In this document: one piece after another, positions 852 through 12,987 of the stretch
Position numbering within the stretch: the first letter of the stretch is position 1
How the letters are laid out: each line of letters begins with the position of its first letter
Source: Nocardia vinacea NBRC 16497
GTDB lineage: Bacteria; Actinomycetota; Actinomycetes; Mycobacteriales; Mycobacteriaceae
Assembly: GCF_000308835.1 (NCBI RefSeq)
Contig: NZ_BAGN01000006.1
Span: forward strand, 62,001-126,000
Direction of reading: 5' to 3'
Length of the DNA: 64,000 nucleotides
Made by a program: the position numbers and the translations under genes
The notes under the pieces: generated by a model
Told to the model about the DNA's origin: nothing
Seen by the model: only the letters and a program-made list of their open reading frames with translations
The model's database searches: none

Positions 852-1001
852 ATGTCCATCGATACGGCTGTACTACAGAAATCCACGGAGGGATCCGCGG
901 AGCCGATCGTGTTCGAACTTCTGGCCGATGCTGCCGATTTCATTGAGCTGGCTTACCAGCCGGTGTGCTCAGTAGTGTGTTCCGACCCGACCTCGGGCTA
1001 A
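852..1001 (+). CDS. Putative RiPP precursor peptide (49 aa)
   Basis: A short reading frame missed by ordinary length cut-offs. The ATG at 852 lies 6 bases after AGGAGA (840-845). The product has an acidic, hydrophobic leader (Glu17 to Leu33, including FELLADAADFIEL) and a short tail AYQPVCSVVCSDPTSG with Cys39 and Cys43. A leader followed by a Cys-bearing C-terminal core, directly upstream of a DUF692/MNIO enzyme, is the usual layout for MNIO-modified RiPPs. Gln36-Pro37 stands just before the Cys pair, so cleavage after Tyr35 would expose an N-terminal Gln for the cyclase encoded at the end of the cluster. No homologue is known to me; the precursor role is inferred from position, length and composition. 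Confidence 0.75.
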   Translation: MSIDTAVLQKSTEGSAEPIVFELLADAADFIELAYQPVCSVVCSDPTSG

Positions 1002-1041
1002 TGCTCTGACCCGGCCTACTACTTAATAGCCGCTGCAATGT

Positions 1042-1082
1042 GGCGGTGCTTGGCGTAGCCCAAGGTCTGGCCCAGCACCGCC
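1042..1082 (+). promoter_or_regulatory. Stem-loop between precursor and MNIO genes
   Basis: GGCGGTGCT at 1042-1050 pairs perfectly with AGCACCGCC at 1074-1082 across a 23-base loop that can itself fold partly. No T-run follows, so it is not a clear intrinsic terminator. Its place right after a small precursor gene and before the enzyme gene suggests partial attenuation or 3' protection of the precursor message, giving more substrate than enzyme. This role is inferred. Confidence 0.45.
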
Positions 1083-1112
1083 CGTTGTTGCCCTGGATAT
1101 TGGCGGATTTAG

Positions 1113-2861
1113 GTGAGCACTACGAATGGCTTCTCCAAGCAACGGCTGCCCAGATTGGGTGCTGGTTTGGGTTATCGCACAGCGATTCACGACAACATCA
1201 TGCAATCGTTGGACTACATTGATTGGCTGGAAATCATTGCCGACCAGTTCATGCCGCTCAATAACGCCACCCGATTGAGACTAGCTGAGTTCCGCCGCGG
1301 TAGTCCGTGTGTGTCGCACAGCCTGGAATTATCCCTGGCTTCGATCGCGCCGGTGCCGGCGGACTACGGGCAATCGGTCCTGGACATCGCGGAGTTCCTT
1401 GCGGCTCCCTGGTTTTCCGATCATTTGGCATTCAATCGACTCGGGCTGATAAATACCGGTTCTTTCCTACCACCATTCCGCGACCTTTCATCCGTACATC
1501 GGGTCGCGAATCGGGTCCGCAGCTTGCAAGCCAGTGCGGGGCGACCTTTTCTCATCGAGAATGTTGCTGGTGCTATCGATCCAGGCGGCGATTTGGATGA
1601 GGTCGATTTTCTGAATGAGGTCGCCGCGCAGGCTGACTGTGGCATTTTGCTCGATATCGCCAATCTGATCGGTCGTTGCATGAGCTTGGGATGGAATGTC
1701 CTCGATTACCTCGACCGCCTCGATCTGGACCGCGTGACCCAAATCCATGTTGCCGGTGGGAAATGGCAGGAGGGGCATCTCCGCGACACCCACGATCAGC
1801 CCGTCTCTGACGATGTGTGGTCACTGCTGGCTCATGTCGCTGCGCGTACAACTATCAACGCGGTGCTAATTGAGCGCGACGCGAACTTTCCGACCGACTT
1901 CGGAGTACTACTCGCGGAACTGAGCCGCGCCAGGAATATCCTGGCCGATCCACAGGGTTTCGTGCAACCGTTCACGGGTGTACCAGCCATCACCACTCCC
2001 CATGTCGATGTTGCCTCCCAGCAACAGCTTGAAAGCACAGTCGAGCGCGTTGTCCTGGCAGCGGGTGGCGACTTGGACGAGCGGCGTCCTCCGAGCACAT
2101 ACCTCGCCGATGGACAGTGGCGCGAATTGCGCAGGTTCGGTGCCGAGGTCCTGCAAAAACGCAGGCAACTCGTGGATATGGCCTTTCCCGCCACCCTGAT
2201 ACTGCTTGGCCCGAGAAGCGATCAAGCAGCGTTGATCAAAGAGTTCGCTATGCAACATCCGCGGGTGCGTGCCTTCGATGAGGATGTCGGATTCAAGATC
2301 GCCGAGATCAGTCGCTTTTCGAGTTTCGCCGCGGTCATGGCCGAAGCGCGACAGCTGTCGCCGGCAGCGAGGGTGGTGATCTCCTTCGAGGCCGCATTGG
2401 CTGCGGCCACCTTGGTCGAGCTGCCGGGACCCGCTTCCGTCGACTGTCCGACCGATACCTGCGTTGTTACCGACGGCCACTTCCACCTTTGTGCAGCCGC
2501 GACCATCGCGCTGGCCCGTTCGGTGCATCTCGTAAGCGCCGAATTCAACGTAGCGGCGGTCCGTGCTGCCGTGATTGCGCGTCAGGCGGCTTCGCCGGAA
2601 GACCTCGATCGACTGTGCGTCGAGCGTGCCGAGCCGATCGAACTGCTGGTGGCACCGTCAAGCGAGGGAAAGCCTCGGATGTTCCGTTTGGGTAGACAGG
2701 AGGCGACCCTTCTTCAGTCGATCCCGGGAACCGTTCACGTCGACCATGGTGCTCGAGCCGCAATGCCGAAAGATGATTTCGGGCGAAGTCTACTCGCTGC
2801 GGCATTTCGTGCTCGCACGATAGCTATCACTCATTCGATGAATTGTGACGGTCAGGAATGA
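1113..2861 (+). CDS. DUF692/MNIO multinuclear iron oxidase with C-terminal extension
   Basis: 582 residues from a GTG start. Residues about 15-280 are a DUF692 (MNIO, MbnB/TglH-type) TIM barrel, a family that uses two or three iron ions and oxygen to modify Cys or other residues in RiPP precursors. Likely metal-ligand motifs are present: His69, SDHLAF (Asp103, His104), IEN (Glu149, Asn150), LLDIAN (Asp181, Asn184), IHVAG (His212), DTH (Asp225, His227) and IERD (Glu254). Residues about 300-582 form a second region I cannot assign. Stand-alone MNIOs are about 280-300 residues and often need a separate partner, so this may be a fused partner domain (inference). Its stop overlaps the next start (ATGA). 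Probable substrate: the 49-residue peptide encoded just upstream. Confidence 0.85.
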   Translation: MSTTNGFSKQRLPRLGAGLGYRTAIHDNIMQSLDYIDWLEIIADQFMPLNNATRLRLAEFRRGSPCVSHSLELSLASIAPVPADYGQSVLDIAEFLAAPWFSDHLAFNRLGLINTGSFLPPFRDLSSVHRVANRVRSLQASAGRPFLIENVAGAIDPGGDLDEVDFLNEVAAQADCGILLDIANLIGRCMSLGWNVLDYLDRLDLDRVTQIHVAGGKWQEGHLRDTHDQPVSDDVWSLLAHVAARTTINAVLIERDANFPTDFGVLLAELSRARNILADPQGFVQPFTGVPAITTPHVDVASQQQLESTVERVVLAAGGDLDERRPPSTYLADGQWRELRRFGAEVLQKRRQLVDMAFPATLILLGPRSDQAALIKEFAMQHPRVRAFDEDVGFKIAEISRFSSFAAVMAEARQLSPAARVVISFEAALAAATLVELPGPASVDCPTDTCVVTDGHFHLCAAATIALARSVHLVSAEFNVAAVRAAVIARQAASPEDLDRLCVERAEPIELLVAPSSEGKPRMFRLGRQEATLLQSIPGTVHVDHGARAAMPKDDFGRSLLAAAFRARTIAITHSMNCDGQE

Positions 2862-4876
2862 AAATTGTAGCGGTGGTCAAATATCCGCCTATACAAGGCG
2901 GTGTGAGTGCACAGAGTTATTGGCTGTGTCGACGGCTGGCCGAACAGGGAAATCAGGTTACCGTCGTCACCAACGCGGCAGAGGTCGAGCCTGAATATCG
3001 GATGTGGCTCGGCCCCGACGATCTGCGCGACCTTCAGGGTAGCTATCAAACGGGAGGCTCGGTGCGGGTCCTGTGGACCGAGTATTGGGATGAATGGCGC
3101 TGGCACCACATCCCGTCGAGCAATCCGATGCTCTCCAAGCTGGCATCACTGGCGATCGACGCTGTCCGCGCGCAGCAGGCCGACCTGATCCTGTCGTACT
3201 ACCTCGAACCGTACGGCCAGGCCGCCGCAATCGCGGCACAGGCAACCGGCGTTCGCTGGTTGACCAAACATGCTGGGAGTGACCGTTACCGCCTGCTGAA
3301 CAACCCCGAACTCGGTACCTACTACAAGCACGTCCTGCGGGCGGCGGACGGAGTGATCACCACTGGCGATCCTCTGCTCGGGCTGGCTGTCGAGGCCGAC
3401 AAGCTGATCGACGGCCCGGCCGAACAGTACATTCCTCCGCAGTTCTCCAATGGTGCGAAGCCGCTGGACCTCAACGTGGAGATACAGAGATTCGGCGCCT
3501 ACGGTAATGCGGCTGTCACCAACAACGCGCCTCTCTCCGCCGACAAGGCAATTATCGGAGCCTACGGGAAAGTTGGCCGAACGAAGGGCACGTTCGACCT
3601 GTTGGAAGCCTTCGCTCGGTCGCCTGAACTGCGTTCTCGAGCACAGTTGGTCCTGATGTGTGGTGGCCCGCTCATGTCGAAGGTGCGCGAGTTCATCGCC
3701 CGCGAAGGCCTCGATTCGGAGGTCTGGACTATACCGTTCATGCCCCATTGGCGCGTACCTGAGTTCATTCGCGCATGCAAGCTGATATGCTTTCTCGAGC
3801 GACAGTTCGCGATCCCCCAGCACGGTCCGAATATTCTCCATGAGATATCTGCATGCGGCGGGCAGGGTCTGGTCTCGGGTGAAATAGCTGCCAAGAATTC
3901 AACCGAGGTCGCGGAGAACCCGAATATTCACGTAATTCCGGATCCAACCGACATTGCCTTGCTGGCCAAGACTATTCTCCAGTTGGTCGGCAATGAAGTG
4001 CTGCCGACTGTCGACATGGATCGAGTTACGCCCGAAAGGATCGTCACAGCGGACCGGCGTTTGTCGGAACTAGCCACACAGATAGCGGCGTTCGCGAAGA
4101 AACCTATCGGCGAGAATTACCGCTCGTCCGTGACAAGCATTGAATCGCCGAGTGCGGTCGGAAACTATGTAGATGAATTATTGAAGCGCTATGCGCCGAC
4201 AATCGACAGCGTTGCTGGGAATGATATACGACGGCAGATTGCCGACCATGCCTGGCCGCTAGACGCATACTTCTTGACACACGTCGTTGGCGCAGTCGAT
4301 CAGGTGGTGGCGGCCAGGACCGGTCATGCGGATTACGACATCCTGGTCTCGGAATCCGATCTGCTGTGGATGTCATGTGATATCGAGTCCGTACAGGGTG
4401 CTGCCCGATTCAGTCTGCCAATCGGTGCTTTGCCGGATAATATTGCCGCGCCGTCGACATGGTCAGCGCCGGACGGTCGATACAAGCGCTGCTGGCTCAC
4501 TACGAACTCGATTCGCTATCGGCGTTACTCCGCAAACACCGTTCGACACATCCTCGACAAGCGGAAAGCATCTGAGGCGGCGCGTGGAAAGTCGGCGGCG
4601 ACGAATCTCGATGGGCTGGAATCAGGGCAGCGAACACATTCCGTGCTGGTTGTCAAGCAAGGCAATCTCGAAGGGAACTTCATCGTCGTACACGAGTCTG
4701 TTGCGAGTTTCTTGCAGTCATGTGATGGCACTCGCAGTCCGGATGAAATCCTCCGCGGTTTGGCTGACGAATTCTCCGAAGCCGACACCATAGTGTCGGC
4801 GGCGATCGAGAATCTTCAGCGATTCAACATCATCAAAAGTATTTGGTATCCCTTAGCGGGGCCGACGGCATGGTAG
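2858..4876 (+). CDS. Glycosyltransferase (GT4-like) fused to PqqD-like RiPP recognition domain
   Basis: 672 residues, starting inside the MNIO stop (ATGA overlap), so translation is probably coupled. Residues 1 to about 420 look like a GT-B glycosyltransferase: N-terminal MKIVAVVKYPPIQGGVSAQS glycine-rich loop, IGAYGKVGRTKGTFDLLEAF at the start of the C-terminal lobe, and HGPNILHEISACG near the donor site. Residues about 430-590 are unassigned. Residues about 594-665 resemble PqqD/RRE domains (hydrophobic strands, then LQSCDGTRSPDEILRGLADEF and a final helix), which bind leader peptides. The fusion suggests a sugar transferred onto the precursor peptide, on Ser, Thr or Cys. Family calls are by motif; donor and acceptor are unknown. 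Confidence 0.75.
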   Translation: MKIVAVVKYPPIQGGVSAQSYWLCRRLAEQGNQVTVVTNAAEVEPEYRMWLGPDDLRDLQGSYQTGGSVRVLWTEYWDEWRWHHIPSSNPMLSKLASLAIDAVRAQQADLILSYYLEPYGQAAAIAAQATGVRWLTKHAGSDRYRLLNNPELGTYYKHVLRAADGVITTGDPLLGLAVEADKLIDGPAEQYIPPQFSNGAKPLDLNVEIQRFGAYGNAAVTNNAPLSADKAIIGAYGKVGRTKGTFDLLEAFARSPELRSRAQLVLMCGGPLMSKVREFIAREGLDSEVWTIPFMPHWRVPEFIRACKLICFLERQFAIPQHGPNILHEISACGGQGLVSGEIAAKNSTEVAENPNIHVIPDPTDIALLAKTILQLVGNEVLPTVDMDRVTPERIVTADRRLSELATQIAAFAKKPIGENYRSSVTSIESPSAVGNYVDELLKRYAPTIDSVAGNDIRRQIADHAWPLDAYFLTHVVGAVDQVVAARTGHADYDILVSESDLLWMSCDIESVQGAARFSLPIGALPDNIAAPSTWSAPDGRYKRCWLTTNSIRYRRYSANTVRHILDKRKASEAARGKSAATNLDGLESGQRTHSVLVVKQGNLEGNFIVVHESVASFLQSCDGTRSPDEILRGLADEFSEADTIVSAAIENLQRFNIIKSIWYPLAGPTAW

Positions 4877-5007
4877 CTTTGCGGGTCAACTCCGGGGTCT
4901 CGAGGTCTGACTGCCATGTCGGATCCTGAACCAGCGTCTCTGCGACACCATCGCGGCACTGACGGTCGGCCGTGCCTGGATATCCGACATCGGCGGGGTG
5001 GGTAGGC

Positions 5008-6300
5008 GTGACAGATCCCACTGTGTCCGACACGAAACGTAACTTCCGTTTGCTCTGGTCCGGTCAGACCGTTAGCCAGCTCGGCAGCATGGTCACGACC
5101 GTAGCTCTGCCGGTCGCGGCTGTTTCGTGGTTGCACGGATCGACATTGGATGTCGGCTTCATCGGAATGTTGCAGTTTCTGCCAGCTTTGATACTTACTC
5201 TGCCCGTGGGCGCCTGGGTGGATCGCCGAAAGAAACGACCCCTGGTGATCGCAGCAAATATCGGACAAGCATGTGCTATCGGCAGCATACCGATTACTGC
5301 GGCGTGGGGATGGTTGTCCATCTACCAGCTCTACCTCGTGGCGCCGGTCATTGGAATGCTGAGTCTTATATCCCAACTCAGCTCCTCGAGCTATATACGT
5401 ACCCTGGTGCCGAAGGGATCTCTACAGCAGGCGAATTCACGACTGCAGGCCAGCGGATCGGCAGCGCGAGTGGTCGGCCCGGGTATCGGCGGCGTATTGA
5501 TCAGCGCGTTCGGAGCCCCGTTCGCTCTTGCTGCGGACGCCATCAGTTTCATGATTTCAGCAGGAACGCTCAGCGTCATCCGTGCCGAGGAGCCGCCGGA
5601 GTCGCTAGCCCGCCGGGATACGACCTATCTGTCGTCGATCACCGAGGGAATGTCCTTGGTATACCGCGACAGACAACTACGTAGCATCATAATATGCGCG
5701 GCCATTGCCAACCTATGTCTGAGCGCGATCGGCACTGTGGAAATTCCGTACTTGCTCAACGAGATGAATGTCGGCTCGTCTGCCGTCGGTGTTATCGTTG
5801 CGGTCGGCAGCGTCGGTGGAATCATCGGGGCGGCTACGGCCGGTTGGTTGTCGCGTAAAATAGGTGACGGCTGGTCGATCTGGCTGGGGCTTGCAATCTT
5901 GGGTCCATTCGGCGTTTTCTTACCACTGGCTTGGCATGGCACCGGTATTGCCTTTTTTGTCCTGGGTCTGTTTTTCTTGGAATGCGGAATCACCGTTTCG
6001 AGTGTGATAGCGATAACCTTCCAGCAGACATATTGTCCGCACGATATGCTGGCGCGCGTCGGCGCATCCTTCCGGGTTCTGCTTATGGGCACAATTCCGT
6101 TCGGCGCATTGCTCGGCGGTGTAGCAGGCTCGCAGTTCGGCGACCGCAACGCCCTCTGGATTTTTGCGATGGTCAATTTTATCCCAGGAATATTGTGGTC
6201 GCTGAGCGGCGCCAGCCGGCGCCGACACTTGCCCTCCGAGCCTCGGTCGAGCATGGCGGGATCCCACATCGCATCCGGTGAGGTGGCCCATGGTTCGTAA
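5008..6300 (+). CDS. MFS transporter, probable exporter of the cluster product
   Basis: About 430 residues with roughly 12 hydrophobic segments and an N-terminal cytoplasmic stub (FRLLWSGQTVSQLGSMV), typical of the MFS_3/EntS-like exporter group. The loop after helix 2 carries the MFS motif-A variant DRRKKRPLV. The start is uncertain: GTG at 5008 is chosen because hydrophobic homology begins soon after, but GTG at 4972 in the same frame is possible. It lies 131 bases after the glycosyltransferase gene, in the same direction as the RiPP genes. Likely role: export of the mature peptide or self-resistance. The cluster has no peptidase-ABC transporter, so leader removal must be done by another protease. 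Confidence 0.85.
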   Translation: MTDPTVSDTKRNFRLLWSGQTVSQLGSMVTTVALPVAAVSWLHGSTLDVGFIGMLQFLPALILTLPVGAWVDRRKKRPLVIAANIGQACAIGSIPITAAWGWLSIYQLYLVAPVIGMLSLISQLSSSSYIRTLVPKGSLQQANSRLQASGSAARVVGPGIGGVLISAFGAPFALAADAISFMISAGTLSVIRAEEPPESLARRDTTYLSSITEGMSLVYRDRQLRSIIICAAIANLCLSAIGTVEIPYLLNEMNVGSSAVGVIVAVGSVGGIIGAATAGWLSRKIGDGWSIWLGLAILGPFGVFLPLAWHGTGIAFFVLGLFFLECGITVSSVIAITFQQTYCPHDMLARVGASFRVLLMGTIPFGALLGGVAGSQFGDRNALWIFAMVNFIPGILWSLSGASRRRHLPSEPRSSMAGSHIASGEVAHGS

Positions 6301-6342
6301 GGTCTCGTCATGCCAGACTTTTAGATAGCAAGGAGAGACACT

Positions 6343-8079
6343 GTGTGCGGAATTGTAGGCGGTATCGGTGAACTTCGCCCTTTTGCAACTTCAGCGATGT
6401 TGTCGAGTATTGCTCATCGTGGTCCGGACGGTACCGGACTGCATATCAAGCCCAACGTTTCTGTAGGCGCTGCACGGCTGGCGATTGTGGACATCGAAGG
6501 CGGTGCGCAGCCTATATACTCGTCCGACGGTCGACATTGCATCGTTTTCAATGGCGAGATATACAACCACCAACAGTTGCGCGCGTCATTGCAGAGACGT
6601 GGGCGTCACTTCCGGTCGGTCACGGACGGAGAGGTGGTGTTGCAGCAGTTCCTTGAATACGGCCCGCAGGGCCTTCGTGAACTGTCCGGTATGTACGCGT
6701 TCTGTATCACAGGACCGGACTGGCTATTTCTGGCACGCGACCCACTAGGAATTAAACCCCTATACATCTATCGCTCTCCTGATGCCCGAACACTGCTATT
6801 CTCCTCGGAGATCAAGGCGCTGCTGCAATCCCCGGTCCATCGGCCTTCTGTGGATATGACCGCCATAGCGGATTGGCTATTGGTCGGCCATCCGTGTGGC
6901 GACCGGACATTCGTAGAACAAGTTCGGGCAGTGCCGCCCGGAACGGGAATACGAGCGACTATTCATGCCGGTGAACTTCGCTACGAACATATCTCGACTA
7001 CGGAAAATGTCGTACTCAACGTAGCGGAGGGCCGTGATTCCGTAGCCGAGAAAGTCTTCGAACAGGAACTTGTGTCCGCTGTGCGAACGCATATCGAAGC
7101 GGACGTCGAAGTCGGTATCGCCCTGTCCGGTGGAATCGATTCCAGTCTGCTCGCGGCTATGGCACCCCAGCGACTCCGATCCTTTACCGTCGCCGAACGG
7201 GAAGACGACGGTGACCTCACCGGAGCTCGTGCCATAGCTCGATCTTTACGTCTCGACCATCACGAACACCTGATAAACACACAGGATTATTTCGACAACA
7301 TCGTTCGGTCGGTCTTGATCGAGGAACAGCCGGCTGCATTGGGCGGGCTTCCGCTGTATTTCCTATGTTTGACCATGTCGCGTCATGTCAAGTGTGCGGT
7401 CATCGGCGAAGGTGCTGACGAACTCTTCGGTGGCTACCGTGAGTATATGGATCCGGCGCTGTATCTCGATGACTCCTCCAGCAGGCTCCGAATGCTCGCC
7501 GACGCGGGGCTGAGGCCCAGTGACGACGCGTTGGAGCTCGTCGAAATGAAGGCAGCCGCTGGACCGGACCGCGATCGTAGGGTGCACGCTTTTCATGCGA
7601 ATCTCGGTAATACATTGGTTCGTCGACATTTAGAAGTGGTCGACAAGTATTCGATGGCGGTTGGTTTGGAACTCCGCGTCCCGTATTTGGACAACGCGGT
7701 ATACCAGTCGGCAATGGCGGTCCCGGTCGGCGCCAAGGTGGATGTTGAATCGCGAACTCAAAAGGTTCTGCTCCGCGAGTTGCTCCAAAATAGACTCGGC
7801 GCATCCGCGGCGTCCGTGCTCAGGCGTCGGAAGCAAGGCTTTCCGGCGAGCGGAGTGCGCCACGCCGCAAGCTTCGCTCGGTACTGTGAATGCATAGTCT
7901 CCGATGACTACATCAAAGCTCATCCGTTGGGCGTGGCGCTTCCGACGAAGTACATGCTTGTTATGTACGACCTGTTCGAGGAGCTGATGTTGCGCAACGC
8001 CGGATGTCGACCGGTGGGCTTCGACCTGGCCGAGTTCATACGATTGCGCTCCACGAGTCGACAACCCACGGGGGCATGA
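6343..8079 (+). CDS. Asparagine synthetase (glutamine-hydrolysing), AsnB type
   Basis: 578 residues from GTG with ribosome site AAGGAGAG (about 6330-6337). The N-terminal class-II glutaminase domain is intact: after Met removal Cys2 of MCGIVGGIG is the nucleophile, with HRGPDG and FNGEIYN following. The synthetase domain has the PP-loop SGGIDSS (from residue 262), GEGADELFGGY and KYSMAVGLELRVPYLD. It should take the amide nitrogen of Gln and transfer it to an AMP-activated carboxylate. In this RiPP setting it may amidate a peptide carboxylate (Asp45, a Glu or the C-terminus) rather than make free Asn. The intact glutaminase argues against a pure lasso-type cyclase, and no lasso B-protein protease is nearby. 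It overlaps the next gene by ATGA. Confidence 0.85.
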   Translation: MCGIVGGIGELRPFATSAMLSSIAHRGPDGTGLHIKPNVSVGAARLAIVDIEGGAQPIYSSDGRHCIVFNGEIYNHQQLRASLQRRGRHFRSVTDGEVVLQQFLEYGPQGLRELSGMYAFCITGPDWLFLARDPLGIKPLYIYRSPDARTLLFSSEIKALLQSPVHRPSVDMTAIADWLLVGHPCGDRTFVEQVRAVPPGTGIRATIHAGELRYEHISTTENVVLNVAEGRDSVAEKVFEQELVSAVRTHIEADVEVGIALSGGIDSSLLAAMAPQRLRSFTVAEREDDGDLTGARAIARSLRLDHHEHLINTQDYFDNIVRSVLIEEQPAALGGLPLYFLCLTMSRHVKCAVIGEGADELFGGYREYMDPALYLDDSSSRLRMLADAGLRPSDDALELVEMKAAAGPDRDRRVHAFHANLGNTLVRRHLEVVDKYSMAVGLELRVPYLDNAVYQSAMAVPVGAKVDVESRTQKVLLRELLQNRLGASAASVLRRRKQGFPASGVRHAASFARYCECIVSDDYIKAHPLGVALPTKYMLVMYDLFEELMLRNAGCRPVGFDLAEFIRLRSTSRQPTGA

Positions 8080-8780
8080 GCTTGATAATCTACGATCCGG
8101 TTGTAATCCAGTCGATTTCGCATAACCCGACTGCTTTTACGCAAGGTTTGGAGATGTTCGACGGTGATCTTCTGGAGAGCAGCGGCGGTCACGGTGATTC
8201 GCAGATATACCGGTACCGCGGCACGGGGCCTGCTGTGGTGAACAGAGTTCGTCTCGGCGGAAACCTTTTCGGCGAAGACATCTGTGTTATTGATGACCAG
8301 CTGGTCCAGTTGACGTGGCGAGATTCAGTGGCCCTGCGATGGAGCCTGCCGGATCTCAATTTGATCGAAAAAGTACCATATGACCGCGAAGGTTGGGGCA
8401 TGTGTACAGACGGCAACTACTGTTACACATCGGATGGTACTGCTGAGATAGCCGTCCGCGATCGGCGGTCCCTTCGTCCGGTGCGCTCGATCTCGGCGCA
8501 TATACCGAGCGGAGAACTGATCAGCGGCCTCAACGCGTTATCCTATGGCGGCGGCGTTCTGTGGGCGAATAAGGTGCAGTCCTGTAGCTTATTCGAGATC
8601 GATCCGCAAACCGGGGTTGTCATCGGCATGGTCAATCTGTGGGACCTATTCATGAATGCGCCCGATAATAGCGGCTACGGGGCGAATGGATTGATCGTGG
8701 ATCTGTCCGGGGGCGAACGGACCCTATGGGTGACGGGAAAGCTACACCCCAGACTCATAAAACTAGTGCTCGAGGGTTGA
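8076..8780 (+). CDS. Glutaminyl-peptide cyclotransferase (glutamine cyclotransferase family)
   Basis: 234 residues if translation starts at the ATG overlapping the asparagine synthetase stop; a longer in-frame start at 8004 is less likely. The sequence follows the beta-propeller glutamine cyclotransferase family: FTQGLEM near the N-terminus, QLTWRD, YDREGWGMCTDG, SDGTAEI, and the C-terminal VTGKLHPRLIKL. The family turns an N-terminal Gln of a peptide into pyroglutamate. No signal peptide is seen, so it would act in the cytoplasm. It closes the RiPP gene cluster; the candidate substrate is the precursor tail beginning Gln36-Pro37 after leader removal. The family call is firm, the substrate is inferred. 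Confidence 0.88.
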   Translation: MSLIIYDPVVIQSISHNPTAFTQGLEMFDGDLLESSGGHGDSQIYRYRGTGPAVVNRVRLGGNLFGEDICVIDDQLVQLTWRDSVALRWSLPDLNLIEKVPYDREGWGMCTDGNYCYTSDGTAEIAVRDRRSLRPVRSISAHIPSGELISGLNALSYGGGVLWANKVQSCSLFEIDPQTGVVIGMVNLWDLFMNAPDNSGYGANGLIVDLSGGERTLWVTGKLHPRLIKLVLEG

Positions 8781-8800: not shown

Positions 8801-9463
8801 TCAGCTGGGGTCGGAGCCGCTGATAGCGGCGAACCATATGGTCGATGCTGCGGCGATGCATACCGCGCCGGTGAAGGCACCGAGACCACCACCGGCGACG
8901 TAAACCCAAAACAGGCCGACGAAGGGAGCGGCGACAGTTGCTTGTGCATCGAGGAGGAGGCGGCGGACTATCCGGGTAGCGGTGGTGGTCAGTGCGGTGG
9001 CATCGGGGTCGGGACGGGTGGGGTTGTCCAGGAGACGCCCGGGGGGCTCGGTATCGCGGAGGCGGCCCGAGGGGTAGACGCGATGACCTGCGATCCGGAC
9101 GGATCGGTCGGTGAAGTCGGCTTGCCCGGCGGTAATGGTCATCAGCACGGGTTCGAAATAGACGGGAAGCCAGCGCGGTTCGGCGGTATCGTGAATTTCG
9201 AGCCAGGATCGACTGACCAGACGATGCTGTTGCCGCACCCGTGAGATATCAACGGTGCGTGGGGTTTCCATAGATCCGATCCGAAAAATCCACAGCGCGA
9301 CCGCCAGTCGATATGCCGTGTAACCAATGATCCCCAACGCCACGACTGCCAGCGCCGCCACTTGGTCCGGATCGGCGAACGGCGCCCAGGCGAGGGAAGT
9401 CGCCAGGGCGCCGATCGTCACGCAGATCGGATAGGCCAGTGGGTGGCCTGTTCCGAAACTCAC
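8801..9463 (-). CDS. Uncharacterised membrane protein
   Basis: 220 residues from a GTG that overlaps the stop of the upstream receptor gene (GTGA), so it is the last gene of the ABC importer operon. It has two hydrophobic segments near the N-terminus (about residues 10-60), a soluble middle of about 100 residues, and two hydrophobic segments near the C-terminus (about 170-215). I do not recognise the family. The tight coupling suggests a link to the transporter, but no function can be read from the sequence. It faces the RiPP cluster tail to tail with a gap of 20 bases. Confidence 0.7.
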   Translation of the reverse strand: MSFGTGHPLAYPICVTIGALATSLAWAPFADPDQVAALAVVALGIIGYTAYRLAVALWIFRIGSMETPRTVDISRVRQQHRLVSRSWLEIHDTAEPRWLPVYFEPVLMTITAGQADFTDRSVRIAGHRVYPSGRLRDTEPPGRLLDNPTRPDPDATALTTTATRIVRRLLLDAQATVAAPFVGLFWVYVAGGGLGAFTGAVCIAAASTIWFAAISGSDPS

Positions 9464-11139
9464 TTCAAGAAGCCGATTTTCGTGTAGTCGAGGGAAGCGA
9501 GGCCAGCCGCGCCGTAGTTGGCGAGATTGTCCCGAACTGCCACATTTCCGGGGGATTGCATCAGCGGCAGCGAGTGGCCTTCTTCGAAGACCTTGCGGTC
9601 GATCTGATTGGCCAGCTCCGTCGCCTTTGCCGGATCGAGTTCCGATACCGCCTGCTCGATCAGAGCATTGATCTCCGGCGAACCGATCCGGCCGTAGTTG
9701 CCCTGCAGATCGGCGGGGTTGTACCCGTAGATCTGGTTGAGGCTGCCGAGCGGGAACGGATCACCGACCCAGATCCACTGCGCCACATCGAAATCACCGG
9801 GCTGGATCACCTCGGTGAAGTAGCCCTTGCCCGGCTTGGTCACGATGTTGAGCTTGACCCCGATCTGTGCCAGGTTCTGCTGGATGATCTGGGCGATCTG
9901 CACCCAGGTGTCGTCGTTGTACATGATGTCGCGGATTTCCAGCTTGCGGCCATCCTTTTCGCGGACATCCCCGTTGAGCTTCCAGCCGAGGTCATCGAGT
10001 TCCTTTGCCGCGGCGGCGGCATCGAAGCCAAGGCTGTTGTCCTGGTATCCGGCCTGCCCCTGGATATAGACATGGTTGTTCAACGGCTTCGGGTTCTCGA
10101 CCAGTCCGTTCTGCATCGCGGTGACGATCCCCTGGCGGTCGATGGCTTTCGAGATGGCGACGCGCAGTTTCGGATCCGCAAGAATCGAGCCCGGCGCACC
10201 ATTGAAGGTGAAATGGCTCCAGCTGTTACCGGGCGCGCGCCGGATCGCCACACCGGGGGTGCTCTTCGCGGTTTTCAGTTCGTCGCGGGTGCCGATGCCG
10301 ATCGCATCGATCTCATTGTTCTGCAGCGCGGGCAGCTGAGCTTTGGAATCCAGAACGCTGTAGGTGATGGTGTCGAGCTTCGGAGTGGCGCCCCACCATT
10401 TGGGGTTGCGGCCGAGCACAATCCGGCCTTGTGCCCTATCTGTGGACTGCACCAGGAACGGACCGGCAGTCAGCGTGATGGCATCGACCAGACTCTTGTT
10501 GAATGCTTCCGGTGTGCCCGTGACCGACTTGGGGAACAGGAACGAGTTGCCCGCGAACTGGCCCCGCCACTCGGCGAAATGCTGCTTGAAGGTAATGACC
10601 GCCTGTCGATCGTCGACGCCGCGCTCGACCTTCTCCACGCGATCGAAGCCACTGTTGTTCGCGATAAGGAAAGCTTTGTCGTTTCCGCTGAGCGCGTTGG
10701 CCTGCGATTGAATGTCTTCCCAGGTCATCGGAGTGCCATCGGACCAGACCGCCTGAGGATTGAACGTGTAGGTGACCTGCTGCGGGCTGGTGTTGGTGAG
10801 CTGGATATCGGTGAAATAGTCGGTATTGATCGTCAGCTGACCGGCGGCATCGGTTCTGAAAGAACGCGGCATCATCGGCCGCTCCAGGGAAGCGATCTCG
10901 AAGTCGTTTCCATCGTTGGACAGCGTGTTCCAGTTCGCTGGGAACGCGGAGATCGCCAGCCGCAGATTGCCGCCGTCACGCAGGTCGGCGACATCGCGGG
11001 GGTTGATGTCGTTGGTCGTGCCGAGCGCGGCGGCGGAGCCCTCGGGTGCGCTCTCGTCGTCCGCACCACACCCCGTCGCTATCAATCCGATGGCGAGCAG
11101 GGGTACCGCGAGGCGGGTTACCGATGAACGAAGCCGCAT
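9460..11139 (-). CDS. ABC transporter substrate-binding lipoprotein (family 5), copy 2
   Basis: 559 residues. The ATG at 11139 is preceded by GGAAGGAG. It has a lipoprotein signal peptide with lipobox LIATGC near residue 24, then a peptide/opine/nickel-type (SBP_bac_5) fold with PQAVWSDGTPMTWEDI and KAIDRQGIVTAMQNGLVENP. The longer upstream open frame runs through the other receptor gene and is not real. It is closely similar along its whole length to the next receptor gene upstream, pointing to a tandem duplication. It should deliver an oligopeptide-like ligand to the permeases encoded upstream in the operon. Confidence 0.9.
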   Translation of the reverse strand: MRLRSSVTRLAVPLLAIGLIATGCGADDESAPEGSAAALGTTNDINPRDVADLRDGGNLRLAISAFPANWNTLSNDGNDFEIASLERPMMPRSFRTDAAGQLTINTDYFTDIQLTNTSPQQVTYTFNPQAVWSDGTPMTWEDIQSQANALSGNDKAFLIANNSGFDRVEKVERGVDDRQAVITFKQHFAEWRGQFAGNSFLFPKSVTGTPEAFNKSLVDAITLTAGPFLVQSTDRAQGRIVLGRNPKWWGATPKLDTITYSVLDSKAQLPALQNNEIDAIGIGTRDELKTAKSTPGVAIRRAPGNSWSHFTFNGAPGSILADPKLRVAISKAIDRQGIVTAMQNGLVENPKPLNNHVYIQGQAGYQDNSLGFDAAAAAKELDDLGWKLNGDVREKDGRKLEIRDIMYNDDTWVQIAQIIQQNLAQIGVKLNIVTKPGKGYFTEVIQPGDFDVAQWIWVGDPFPLGSLNQIYGYNPADLQGNYGRIGSPEINALIEQAVSELDPAKATELANQIDRKVFEEGHSLPLMQSPGNVAVRDNLANYGAAGLASLDYTKIGFLK

Positions 11140-11171
11140 GGGTCGCTCCTTCCAGCAGACGTGCTGCGTAG

Positions 11172-12863
11172 TTACTTCAGGAAGCCGATCTTGGTGTAGT
11201 CGTAGGAGGCCAGGCCGGGAGCACCATAATTGGCGAGATCGGCACGCACGCCAACATTGCCGGTGGACTGTACGAGGGGAACAGAGAAGCCGATCTCGAA
11301 CAGCTTGCGGTCCACATCGTTGGCGAGGTCGTTCGCCTTGTTCGGATCGAGTTCGGCGAGGGTCCGCTCGATCAGATCGTTGATCTCGGGCGTGCCGATC
11401 CGGCCGTAGTTGCCCTGTAGTTCGGTCGGGTTGTAGCCGTACACCTGTGGGATGCTGCTGAGGGGGAAGGCATCGCCTTGCCAGATCCAGTGCGCCACGT
11501 CGAAGTCGCCAGGCTTGATCACATTGGTGAAATAGCCAGGGCCCGGCTTGGTATCGATGACCAACTTTACGCCGATCCGGGCCAAGTTCTGCTGGATGAT
11601 CTGCGCGATCTGCACCCACTGCTGGGCGTTGTACATAACATCGCGGATTTCCAGCTTGCGACCATCCTTCTCCCGCACATCGCCGTTCAGCTTCCAGCCG
11701 AGCGCGTCGAGTTCCTTGGCTGCGGACTCTGGATCGTAGGGCAGGCTGTTGTCGCGGTAGCCGACCTGACCGTCGACGAAGATATGGTTGTTCAACGGTC
11801 TCGGCGCCGCCACCAGGCCATTCTGTACCGCGTTCGCGATGCCCTGGCGATCGATCGCCTTCGAAATGGCCACGCGTACCGCGGGATCGGCCACGATCGA
11901 GCCCGGCGATCCGTTGAAGCTCAGGTGCGACCAACTATTGCCCGCCGCGCGTCGGATAGCGATGCCGACAGTGCTGCGTGCGGTCCTCATGTCATCGATA
12001 GAGGAGATTCCTACCGCATCGATCTCGTTGTTCTGCAACGCGGGGATCAATGCTTCGCTGGCCAGCACCGAGAACGTGATGGTGTCCAGCTTGGGCTTGT
12101 CGCCCCACCACAACTGGTTGCGGCTCAGTACGATTCGGCCTTGGGCCCGATCCACCGATTGCACCAGAAAGGGTCCCGCGGTCAGCGTGATGTCGTTGAG
12201 CAGACTCTTGTTGAATGCCTCCGGTGATTCGGTGACCGACTTCGGGAATAGAAAACTGTTGCCCGCGAATTGGCCACGCCATTCGGCGTAGTGCTGCTTG
12301 AAGGTGATGACGGCCTGCCGTTCGTTGGTGCCGCGCTCGACCTTCTCGACCCGGTCGAAGCCATTGGTCAGCTTGATCAGGTAGCTCTTGTCCGCACCGC
12401 TGAGCGCTGCCGCCTGGGATCTGAGGTCCTCCCAGGTGATCGGGCTGCCGTCGGACCAGACCGCCTTGGGATTGATCGTGTATGTGACCTGCTGTGGGTT
12501 CGTGTTGGTGAGCTCGACGTCCGTGAAATAGTCAGTGTTGACCGAGAATTCGCCGGAGGCGCTGGTACGGAATGCCCGCGGCATCATCGGCCGCTCGAGC
12601 GCACCGACCTCGCCCGAGGCGTCGGTGTGCAGGGCATTCCAGTTCTCCGGCAGGGCAGTCAGCGCGAGCCGCAGGTTGCCGCCGTCACGTAGCGCGTCGA
12701 CGTCATGCGGATTGATATCGCTCGTTGTGCCGAGTTCGGCCACCGATCCTTCGGGCGCGCTCTCATCCGCGCTGGAACATCCGGCGAAAACCAGCCCAAA
12801 TGCGAATAGCGGCACAGCGAATCGAGTGCGCAGCGGCGTGTTCCGCGCGTTCGACATCGTCAT
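11172..12863 (-). CDS. ABC transporter substrate-binding lipoprotein (family 5), copy 1
   Basis: About 563 residues (start ATG 12863, or ATG 12857 two codons later). The signal peptide ends in lipobox LVFAGC, so it is a lipid-anchored receptor. It has the SBP_bac_5 pattern (AVWSDGSPITWEDL, KAIDRQGIANAVQNGLV). It sits 124 bases after the fused ATPase gene and 32 bases before its own paralogue. The two copies keep nearly the same residues through most of the protein but differ at scattered sites, so they may bind related ligands. The ribosome site is weak; an upstream in-frame extension to 12977 lacks a secretion signal and is rejected. Confidence 0.88.
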   Translation of the reverse strand: MTMSNARNTPLRTRFAVPLFAFGLVFAGCSSADESAPEGSVAELGTTSDINPHDVDALRDGGNLRLALTALPENWNALHTDASGEVGALERPMMPRAFRTSASGEFSVNTDYFTDVELTNTNPQQVTYTINPKAVWSDGSPITWEDLRSQAAALSGADKSYLIKLTNGFDRVEKVERGTNERQAVITFKQHYAEWRGQFAGNSFLFPKSVTESPEAFNKSLLNDITLTAGPFLVQSVDRAQGRIVLSRNQLWWGDKPKLDTITFSVLASEALIPALQNNEIDAVGISSIDDMRTARSTVGIAIRRAAGNSWSHLSFNGSPGSIVADPAVRVAISKAIDRQGIANAVQNGLVAAPRPLNNHIFVDGQVGYRDNSLPYDPESAAKELDALGWKLNGDVREKDGRKLEIRDVMYNAQQWVQIAQIIQQNLARIGVKLVIDTKPGPGYFTNVIKPGDFDVAHWIWQGDAFPLSSIPQVYGYNPTELQGNYGRIGTPEINDLIERTLAELDPNKANDLANDVDRKLFEIGFSVPLVQSTGNVGVRADLANYGAPGLASYDYTKIGFLK

Positions 12864-12987
12864 TTCACGAATCCGATCGTGGGTGGCGGGCGCGATGTCC
12901 CGCAGATCGGTGACCTTCGAGATCGTTACGTGCAGTGCGGGATCAGCCCACCGCATTCCGCTCGATCGGATCCGCATCGCGCTCTCC

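Follow-up and report, generated by a model that had tools for sequence, protein, structure and literature searches.

At positions 852–8780 of the window (the whole 64-kb stretch of DNA that was analysed), we found six genes that probably form an uncharacterised MNIO-type RiPP gene cluster operating by the mechanism proposed below (probability about 0.7, as judged from sequence). MNIO enzymes perform unusual chemistry on peptides and, to our knowledge, few have been characterised. The assignment to a RiPP pathway, already made in the initial annotation, was supported by the MNIO, the glycosyltransferase, an RRE-like domain and Cys-bearing short frames at 11/11 loci.

Organization of the locus

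The open reading frames were co-directional on the + strand. In order, they encoded a precursor candidate of 49 residues, an MNIO, a glycosyltransferase of the GT4 type, an MFS exporter, an amidotransferase of the AsnB type and a glutaminyl cyclase. ATGA overlaps were located at 2858–2861 and 8076–8079. The six-gene arrangement with two overlaps was as initially described, and the lower GC content noted at the time was also borne out: it was 0.577 for 852–8780 versus 0.653 for 8781–64000, and same-length windows elsewhere in the 64-kb stretch had a mean of 0.654 and a minimum of 0.624. All enzyme frames were open and full length, with catalytic motifs kept and overlaps intact. The genes of the cluster did not include a peptidase. 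A strong RNA hairpin (1032–1091, + strand) lay between the precursor and enzyme genes. The predicted fold of 985–1125 had an energy of −57.1 kcal/mol (z −2.36); 3 of 200 shuffles reached an energy as low. The hairpin was not among the terminator-like sites detected; it may set the ratio of precursor to enzymes.

The MNIO and glycosyltransferase fusion proteins

The MNIO gene (1113–2861, + strand) encoded a two-domain fusion. As expected for an MNIO-modified RiPP cluster, its MNIO domain (1113–1943) exceeded the PF05114 cut-off of 25 with 221.2 bits at residues 16–277. Ten His/Asp/Glu/Asn columns were invariant across 8 relatives, and the profile matched 3bww, 8hci (TglH, 1.7e-41) and MbnB. The whole genome contained one MNIO. 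By profile alignment and a structure model, the second half of the gene (1968–2861, + strand) resembles an MNIO partner protein of PME-type 2, here joined to the enzyme. An hhalign comparison with 7 free-standing partners gave 66.9% (E 5.2e-5), with negative controls at 0.3% and 0.1%. This region and the C-terminal region of the glycosyltransferase were each folded alone with AF2. The top three Foldseek matches of the MNIO C-terminal model, which had middling confidence (pLDDT 61.2), were 8hi7_A, 3dee and 8hci_A (E 0.004–0.008; next 1.1), and structure comparison gave Z scores of 10.0, 9.7 and 9.5 (next 4.8). Neither C-terminal model had a Foldseek match as low as E 0.001. At the middling confidence of its model, the fused domain would represent the PME-type partner of MNIO RiPP clusters. 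The earlier reading did not include a partner domain fused to the MNIO.

The glycosyltransferase gene (2858–4876, + strand) encoded a GT4-type domain (2858–4120; PF13579, 42.1 bits; PF00534, 34.5 bits; both above cut-off), followed by a C-terminal domain (4121–4876) with a partner-like helical part and an RRE/PqqD-like end. The full-length protein shared 29–34% identity with nine relatives. Its PqqD stretch scored below the PF05402 cut-off of 23.4 (18.6 bits), and one relative (L037) scored marginally above it (23.5 bits). Set against the beta3-alpha3 order of an RRE, the tail was modelled with strands at 131–137, 172–179 and 185–190 and then three helices, the first two strands being separated by a further helix. 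Glycosyltransferase tails (9 rows) and partners (7 rows) matched at 97.1% (E 5.8e-11) in hhalign, and a direct comparison of the tails with the C-terminal half of the window MNIO gave only 1.2%. Foldseek with the tail model (pLDDT 68.8) returned 3dee as the top match (E 0.049), and in VIA-align 8hi7_A reached Z 9.8, with 182 aligned and an rmsd of 4.1, against 5.8 for the best of the other folds. In the profiles and models, the PqqD-like stretch is the end of a larger, TglI-like partner-fold domain. The glycosyltransferase–PqqD/RRE fusion of the initial annotation was thereby retained as to the presence of an RRE-like domain and revised as to its extent. A built-in peptide-holding module of one kind appears to be present in both the MNIO and the glycosyltransferase.

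Exporter, amidotransferase and cyclase

The MFS exporter (4972–6300, + strand; start perhaps at 5008) matched PF07690 (97.9 bits) and, under the cut-off, TIGR00900 (196 bits). No homologue was present at the 12 other loci. The AsnB (6343–8079, + strand), an Asn-synthetase-type amidotransferase with Cys2 and an SGGIDSS motif, matched PF00733 with 175.7 bits. Its score of 347.4 bits against TIGR01536 (cut-off 267.1) predicts an asparagine synthase (glutamine-hydrolysing) activity. The nearest solved structure was 7ylz, a hydroxyamidotransferase. A lasso cyclase assignment was rejected (NF033535, 139.5 bits; cut-off 525). The match to the AsnB of another locus (L052) was 38.9% across 581 columns (338 bits) and own-genome paralogues reached at most 186 bits; by these scores the enzyme is closer to cluster AsnBs than to those of its own genome.

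The last gene encoded a second, cluster-borne glutaminyl cyclase (8076–8780, + strand), which matched the glutamine cyclotransferase family PF05096 with 173.7 bits (cut-off 22.3) and carried a Glu that we take to be catalytic. The closest solved structure was 3nol (E 3.3e-33). Its start is most likely 8076 and not the first in-frame start, 8004, because of the ATGA overlap at 8076–8079. Its own genome had two glutaminyl cyclase matches, whereas each of the 146 further genomes that had any match had one.

The precursor candidate

The 49-aa precursor candidate (852–1001, + strand) had a Shine-Dalgarno sequence, AGGAG, close upstream. Its leader carried EPIVFE (residues 17–22), its C-terminal stretch (residues 36–49) was QPVCSVVCSDPTSG, and no Sec signal peptide was visible by eye. 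The leader motif [DE]Px(L/V/I)(F/L)E, defined after the loci had been inspected, was common to 8/11 loci. Within the window, the 852–1001 frame was the only one of 567 short frames (25–120 aa) with this motif. Among the 1513 short frames of 11 other stretches, 6 had the motif, each of them the frame preceding the MNIO. A profile HMM built from the precursors of six relatives did not single out the 852–1001 frame, which ranked only 20th (E 9.1). Its overall identity to Nocardia precursors was 24%. The core had only two Cys, as C-x3-C, whereas the cores of relatives were Cys-richer or contained CxxC. The sole Gln near a core and the sole cyclase both belonged to the window locus.

Occurrence in other genomes

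The glycosyltransferase family was found in 13 genomes from four families of one class. Since an MNIO adjoined the glycosyltransferase in 11 of the 13, the pairing is above chance. Of the other two genomes, one had a contig that stopped within the partner gene and the other (G277) had no detected MNIO. Wherever an MNIO was adjacent and the start was covered (11 loci), a Cys-bearing short frame headed the operon, directly upstream of the MNIO at 10 loci and ahead of AsnB at one; the leader motif at 8 of them adds to the conservation expected of a precursor beside an MNIO. The main outcome named as contrary to the initial annotation, homologous loci without such a frame, therefore did not arise. 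AsnB was present at 3/13 loci, and the cyclase and MFS genes at the window locus only. The initial view of the genes as one set consequently stood for the MNIO and glycosyltransferase, with the exception of the one genome having the latter alone, and not for AsnB, cyclase and exporter. From these comparisons, the core cassette is the precursor, MNIO, partner and glycosyltransferase-partner.

The genome-wide scan was limited to two peptide patterns and therefore under-counts. The genome samples gave 5/150 genomes for the genus, 2/397 for the order, 2/394 for the class, 1/100 for the family of G753, and 4/200 and 2/200 for other samples; these tallies are not additive because the samples overlap. 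No such cluster occurred in the rest of the 150 genus genomes searched, where the nearest glycosyltransferase had 44% identity. Plasmids yielded no near DNA match to the cluster; two distant glycosyltransferase matches (Agrobacterium and Rhizobium) had annotated neighbours that were not RiPP-like, and MNIO relatives on 354 plasmid records all covered less than 80% of the query. Viral contigs gave no match.

Proposed pathway

The chemistry we infer comprises Cys oxidation, glycosylation, amidation and pyroglutamate formation at Gln36. The precursor leader, around EPIVFE, would be held in turn by the MNIO-fused and then the glycosyltransferase-fused partner module. The MNIO would oxidise Cys39, Cys43 or both, and the glycosyltransferase would add a sugar to the core with Cys or Ser/Thr as the acceptor. 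With ammonia drawn from glutamine, AsnB would amidate one carboxylate, that of the C-terminal Gly49 or that of Asp45. Cleavage between Tyr35 and Gln36 would fall to a host protease encoded outside the cluster, Gln36 would be cyclised to pyroglutamate by the cyclase, and the finished peptide would leave the cell through the MFS exporter.

Only tentatively, and at less than even odds, we hypothesize a new class of RiPPs whose MNIO and glycosyltransferase use one recognition system via duplicated, fused MNIO-partner modules. Since modules are fused to both enzymes, one leader could be passed from oxidation to (S-)glycosylation. The same tentative hypothesis comprises a window product that is pyroglutamylated N-terminally, amidated, glycosylated and MNIO-modified at Cys, and 'partner' proteins that are general leader-binding adaptors and not MNIO-only, because the glycosyltransferase-partner module exists apart from any MNIO (G277). 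If the proposed pathway is right, glycosylation would join the repertoire of MNIO enzymes, the glycosyltransferase with its partner-like tail would be an anchor for mining further clusters, and the two self-contained fusion proteins would be handy for reconstitution. The genome with such a tail and no detected MNIO raises the question of whether 'MNIO partner' proteins generally serve as leader-peptide adaptors.

Alternative interpretations

The enzymes might belong to a RiPP pathway whose true precursor lies elsewhere or is a protein, the 852–1001 frame not being the (sole) substrate. Its 20th place in the relatives' precursor profile, its two Cys and its 24% identity to Nocardia precursors are consistent with this, but we consider it unlikely given that the frame lies directly before the MNIO, has a Shine-Dalgarno sequence and carries a leader motif unique among 567 frames. 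Exopolysaccharide loci commonly hold GT4 and AsnB enzymes, and 7ylz, nearest to AsnB, is a hydroxyamidotransferase, so that the glycosyltransferase and AsnB could be imagined to make a sugar amide for a cell-surface glycan or small metabolite, next to an accidental small frame. This is highly improbable: the glycosyltransferase tail is partner/RRE-like, a Cys frame heads 11/11 loci, and both MNIOs and partners of the PME type are associated with RiPPs (PMC12452194, PMC13097082).

That AsnB forms a nitrile (nitrilobacillin-like) or a lactam (lasso-like) instead of an amide, with the cyclase having a different substrate, is a minority possibility of some weight. According to the accessible text on nitrilobacillins (PMC13060819), AS-like enzymes of MNIO clusters can make nitriles, and the window AsnB does match NF033535, though far below its cut-off. 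The glutaminase Cys2, the synthetase motif and the TIGR01536 score above cut-off argue for amide formation, as with TsrC in the same text, and are still compatible with a nitrile. A degenerate, horizontally acquired remnant without a product would explain the low GC, the diverged core, the lack of a protease and the isolated occurrence within the genus (nearest glycosyltransferase 44%), but the full-length frames, catalytic motifs and overlaps make it quite improbable.

Comparison with known systems

Curated models of known MNIO systems all scored below cut-off: bufferin BufB (NF050167, 184.1 bits; cut-off 310), HvfB-type maturase (NF003818, 154.6; 360), methanobactin MbnB (TIGR04159, 40.8; 325), aminopyruvatide ApyH (NF050151, 100.3; 400) and chryseobasin ChrH (NF050165, 46.2; 600). 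A nitrilobacillin cluster was rejected because its alpha-KG HExxH enzyme and M16 peptidases were absent from the six genes in Pfam searches.

The enzyme combination had initially been regarded as new. Its parts are separately in print: the accessible portions of the respective papers describe an MNIO together with an Asn-synthetase-like enzyme in nitrilobacillin clusters (PMC13060819) and, as early as 2020, RRE-glycosyltransferase fusions (PMC7470986). What novelty is left was judged on open-licence papers without their supplements. The fusions from RRE-Finder (PMC7470986, in its accessible part, and PMC12710340) resemble the window enzyme in joining a glycosyltransferase to an RRE; those in PMC12710340 have PF00535 (GT2-type), whereas the window enzyme is GT4. 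One of the fusions in Fig. S7 of PMC7470986 could belong to the same family as the window enzyme.

As far as the available text of PMC13060819 goes, the nitrilobacillin (pes) cluster likewise combines an MNIO, a partner and an AS-like enzyme, and differs in its alpha-KG HExxH enzyme, M16 peptidases and pseudo-MNIO and in having no glycosyltransferase. The std cluster, in the available part of PMC13174530, is also an actinomycete system in which an MNIO occurs with an MFS exporter and a partner bearing an RRE; its chemistry is of the YcaO-TfuA and carbamoyltransferase kind, in contrast to the glycosyltransferase, AsnB and cyclase of the window. The bufferin/HvfB systems (PME-type 1) provided the best curated models for the window MNIO (BufB, HvfB), and 3dee (PME1) resembled the window modules. 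Unlike them, the window has a glycosyltransferase, AsnB and cyclase, and a precursor with no visible Sec signal peptide. In the pearlin system (TglHI), TglH matched the window MNIO profile (1.7e-41) and the fold of TglI (8hi7_A, 8hci_A) was among the top matches of both window C-terminal modules. The window substrate is not a pearlin-type C-terminal Cys scaffold, and the putative partner is fused to the MNIO, with a second copy on the glycosyltransferase.

Gene content and layout of the cluster

The cluster consisted of six frames on the plus strand (852–8780), which encoded a 49-residue peptide (852–1001), an MNIO (PF05114; 1113–2861), a GT4-type glycosyltransferase (GT; 2858–4876), an MFS protein (4972–6300), an AsnB-type amidotransferase (6343–8079) and a glutaminyl cyclase (8076–8780). 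The intergenic gaps were, in order, 111, −4, 95, 42 and −4 nt, so that two junctions were ATGA overlaps. The co-directional arrangement with two such overlaps proposed in the initial annotation was confirmed, as was a GC content below that of the flanks (0.577 vs 0.653 for 8781–64000 and 0.657 for the 12.1 kb directly upstream of the window). An RNA hairpin (z −2.36) was located at 1032–1091, between the precursor and the enzyme genes. Just 5' of the cluster, a divergent minus-strand frame (stretch L041, 10309–12096, reaching about window position 96) contained a P-loop-like GASGVGKTS stretch and, judged by eye, possibly encodes a regulator. Two neighbouring minus-strand frames (9460–12977) resembled each other, both being lipoprotein-like and of the solute-binding type of an ABC transporter, and looked by eye like a tandem duplication.

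Recurrence of the cassette

The GT was the best handle for locating related loci. Its family was present in 5 of 150 genomes of the window's genus (E 1e-20), with 44% identity to the closest other copy. A genome-wide scan with a five-GT alignment gave six named loci (Asanoa iriomotensis, Asanoa ishikariensis, Nocardia colli, N. tenerifensis, N. altamirensis and Actinosynnema sp. ALI-1.44), and further searches added genomes G277, G753, G1031, G968 and G1164. Including the window and genome G457, at least 13 distinct genomes from four families (f1, f14, f15, f41) of one class carried the GT, a lower bound drawn from overlapping genome samples. The MNIO adjoined the GT in 11 of these 13, and a partner protein, free-standing or fused, was encoded in 12 loci. 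N. tenerifensis, where the contig starts within the partner gene, was one of the two loci without an MNIO beside the GT; a genome-wide search of the complete G277 genome for PF05114 gave no match.

The remaining enzymes were patchy beside this recurring cassette, so the core is constant and the tailoring variable. AsnB occurred in three of the 13 loci (window, G753, G968), the window copy scoring 338 and 254 bits against the other two vs at most 186 bits against its own-genome paralogues. Twelve other stretches searched (4.7 to 20 kb) contained no homologue of the MFS protein and no convincing homologue of the cyclase. Thus the MNIO–GT pair of the initially annotated set recurred, but not the six types as one set. 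Cyclase homologues were found in 147 of 148 genus genomes, one apiece except for two in the window genome, and the cluster cyclase (29–37% to other genus cyclases) is therefore an extra, diverged copy. No hydrophobic N-terminus was visible by eye, so this enzyme would be cytoplasmic. Lantibiotic dehydratases were found in the vicinity of the cassette in at least four of the 13 loci, three of the genus Asanoa and G1164 (L042, 10984–14112; L043, 1916–4945; L076; L078, 15688–18621), which suggests mixed lanthipeptide/MNIO tailoring there. Next to the cassette in G753 (L052, 1692–5019 and 11061–14336) were genes for a carbamoyltransferase, another glycosyltransferase and an additional AsnB–methyltransferase fusion protein.

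Precursor frame and leader motif

In all 11 loci whose MNIO start was covered, a short Cys-bearing frame headed the operon, as the initial annotation had expected of homologous loci. It lay immediately 5' of the MNIO in ten; in G753 the order was two short Cys-bearing frames, AsnB, partner, MNIO and GT. In G968 (L077), a 77-residue Cys-tailed frame preceded the MNIO. Eight of the 11 frames shared a leader motif, [DE]Px(L/V/I)(F/L)E, picked post hoc from these same loci: the frames of the window (EPIVFE) and of Actinosynnema, and three each from Nocardia and the genus Asanoa. The motif was absent from the G753, G968 and G1164 frames. Across eleven non-window stretches it occurred in 6 of 1513 frames of 25–120 aa, all six being the frame preceding the MNIO, and in the window only the candidate precursor (1 of 567 short frames) had it. 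Shuffling this peptide produced the motif in 0.11% of cases. A sterner test failed: a profile HMM from six relatives' precursors ranked the window frame only 20th (E 9.1).

Partner-like modules on the MNIO and the GT

Beyond residue 277, the window MNIO had about 300 residues without a Pfam family. Its C-terminal half (1968–2861) aligned with seven free-standing MNIO-adjacent proteins of relatives (hhalign 66.9%, E 5.2e-5, 181 columns), vs 0.3% and 0.1% for two unrelated control stretches of the window. The same fusion was found in G968 (hhalign 76.3%, E 2.2e-5), a second natural MNIO–partner fusion; AsnB is divergently transcribed in that locus. An AF2 model of the region, of middling confidence (pLDDT 61.2), retrieved TglI, the partner of TglH, twice and 3dee as the top three Foldseek matches (E 0.004–0.008; next 1.1). 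Helical folds may reach middling VIA-align Z scores by chance, but these three related structures (10.0, 9.7 and 9.5) stood far above the next (4.8). Of these, 3dee belongs to the type 1 MNIO partners (PMC13097082); partners of this fold lacking the DUF2063 signature are PME-type 2 (PMC12452194).

The initial annotation described the GT as fused to a PqqD-like RRE. The PqqD match on its tail (4121–4876) fell short of the Pfam cut-off for the window protein and narrowly exceeded it for that of locus L037, but the whole tail aligned with partners (nine tails vs seven partners; hhalign 97.1%, E 5.8e-11, 196 columns). Its AF2 model (pLDDT 68.8) matched 3dee best in Foldseek (E 0.049) and TglI in VIA-align (Z 9.8 over 182 residues; best other fold 5.8). 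The G277 GT had a partner-like tail too (hhalign 92.4%, E 5.1e-7), in a genome without a detected MNIO. Because of these alignments, fold matches and the G277 tail, we read the GT tail as a putative PME-type 2 module carried on a glycosyltransferase. Direct comparison of GT tails with the window MNIO C-terminal half was negative (1.2%) and counts against this reading; we put this down to the single diverged sequence. Neighbours of the G277 GT (L051, 8564–10594) included radical SAM, LAL_C2/ATP-grasp and sulfotransferase genes.

Proposed pathway and comparison with known systems

Gene content, domain build and recurrence were seen in the sequences. In the pathway that we infer, the leader, around residues 17–22, would dock on the partner module of each of the two fusion enzymes. 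The MNIO would oxidise Cys39 and/or Cys43, and the GT would attach a sugar to the peptide. We lean, tentatively, towards Cys as the sugar acceptor, as the last nine residues of the Actinosynnema precursor (YPMPCGGCG) contain no Ser or Thr. Since AsnB retains Cys2 and SGGIDSS, amidation is the plain reading of its role, probably at Gly49 or Asp45. Gln36 immediately precedes the Cys core, and a cut after Tyr35 would expose it to the cyclase; the cluster has no protease gene.

That these enzyme types were not known together, as initially annotated, was true in part. Searches of the open-licence literature (main texts) retrieved no study that pairs an MNIO with a partner-domain-bearing glycosyltransferase or a glutaminyl cyclase, and the terms 'glycosyl', 'asparagine synth' and 'glutaminyl' were absent from the main text of PMC12452194, which surveys the MNIO landscape. 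The combination of an MNIO with an AS-like enzyme, however, is already described (PMC13060819). RRE-bearing partners are likewise described (PMC13174530), and RRE–glycosyltransferase fusions are mentioned as a remark (PMC7470986, PMC12710340).
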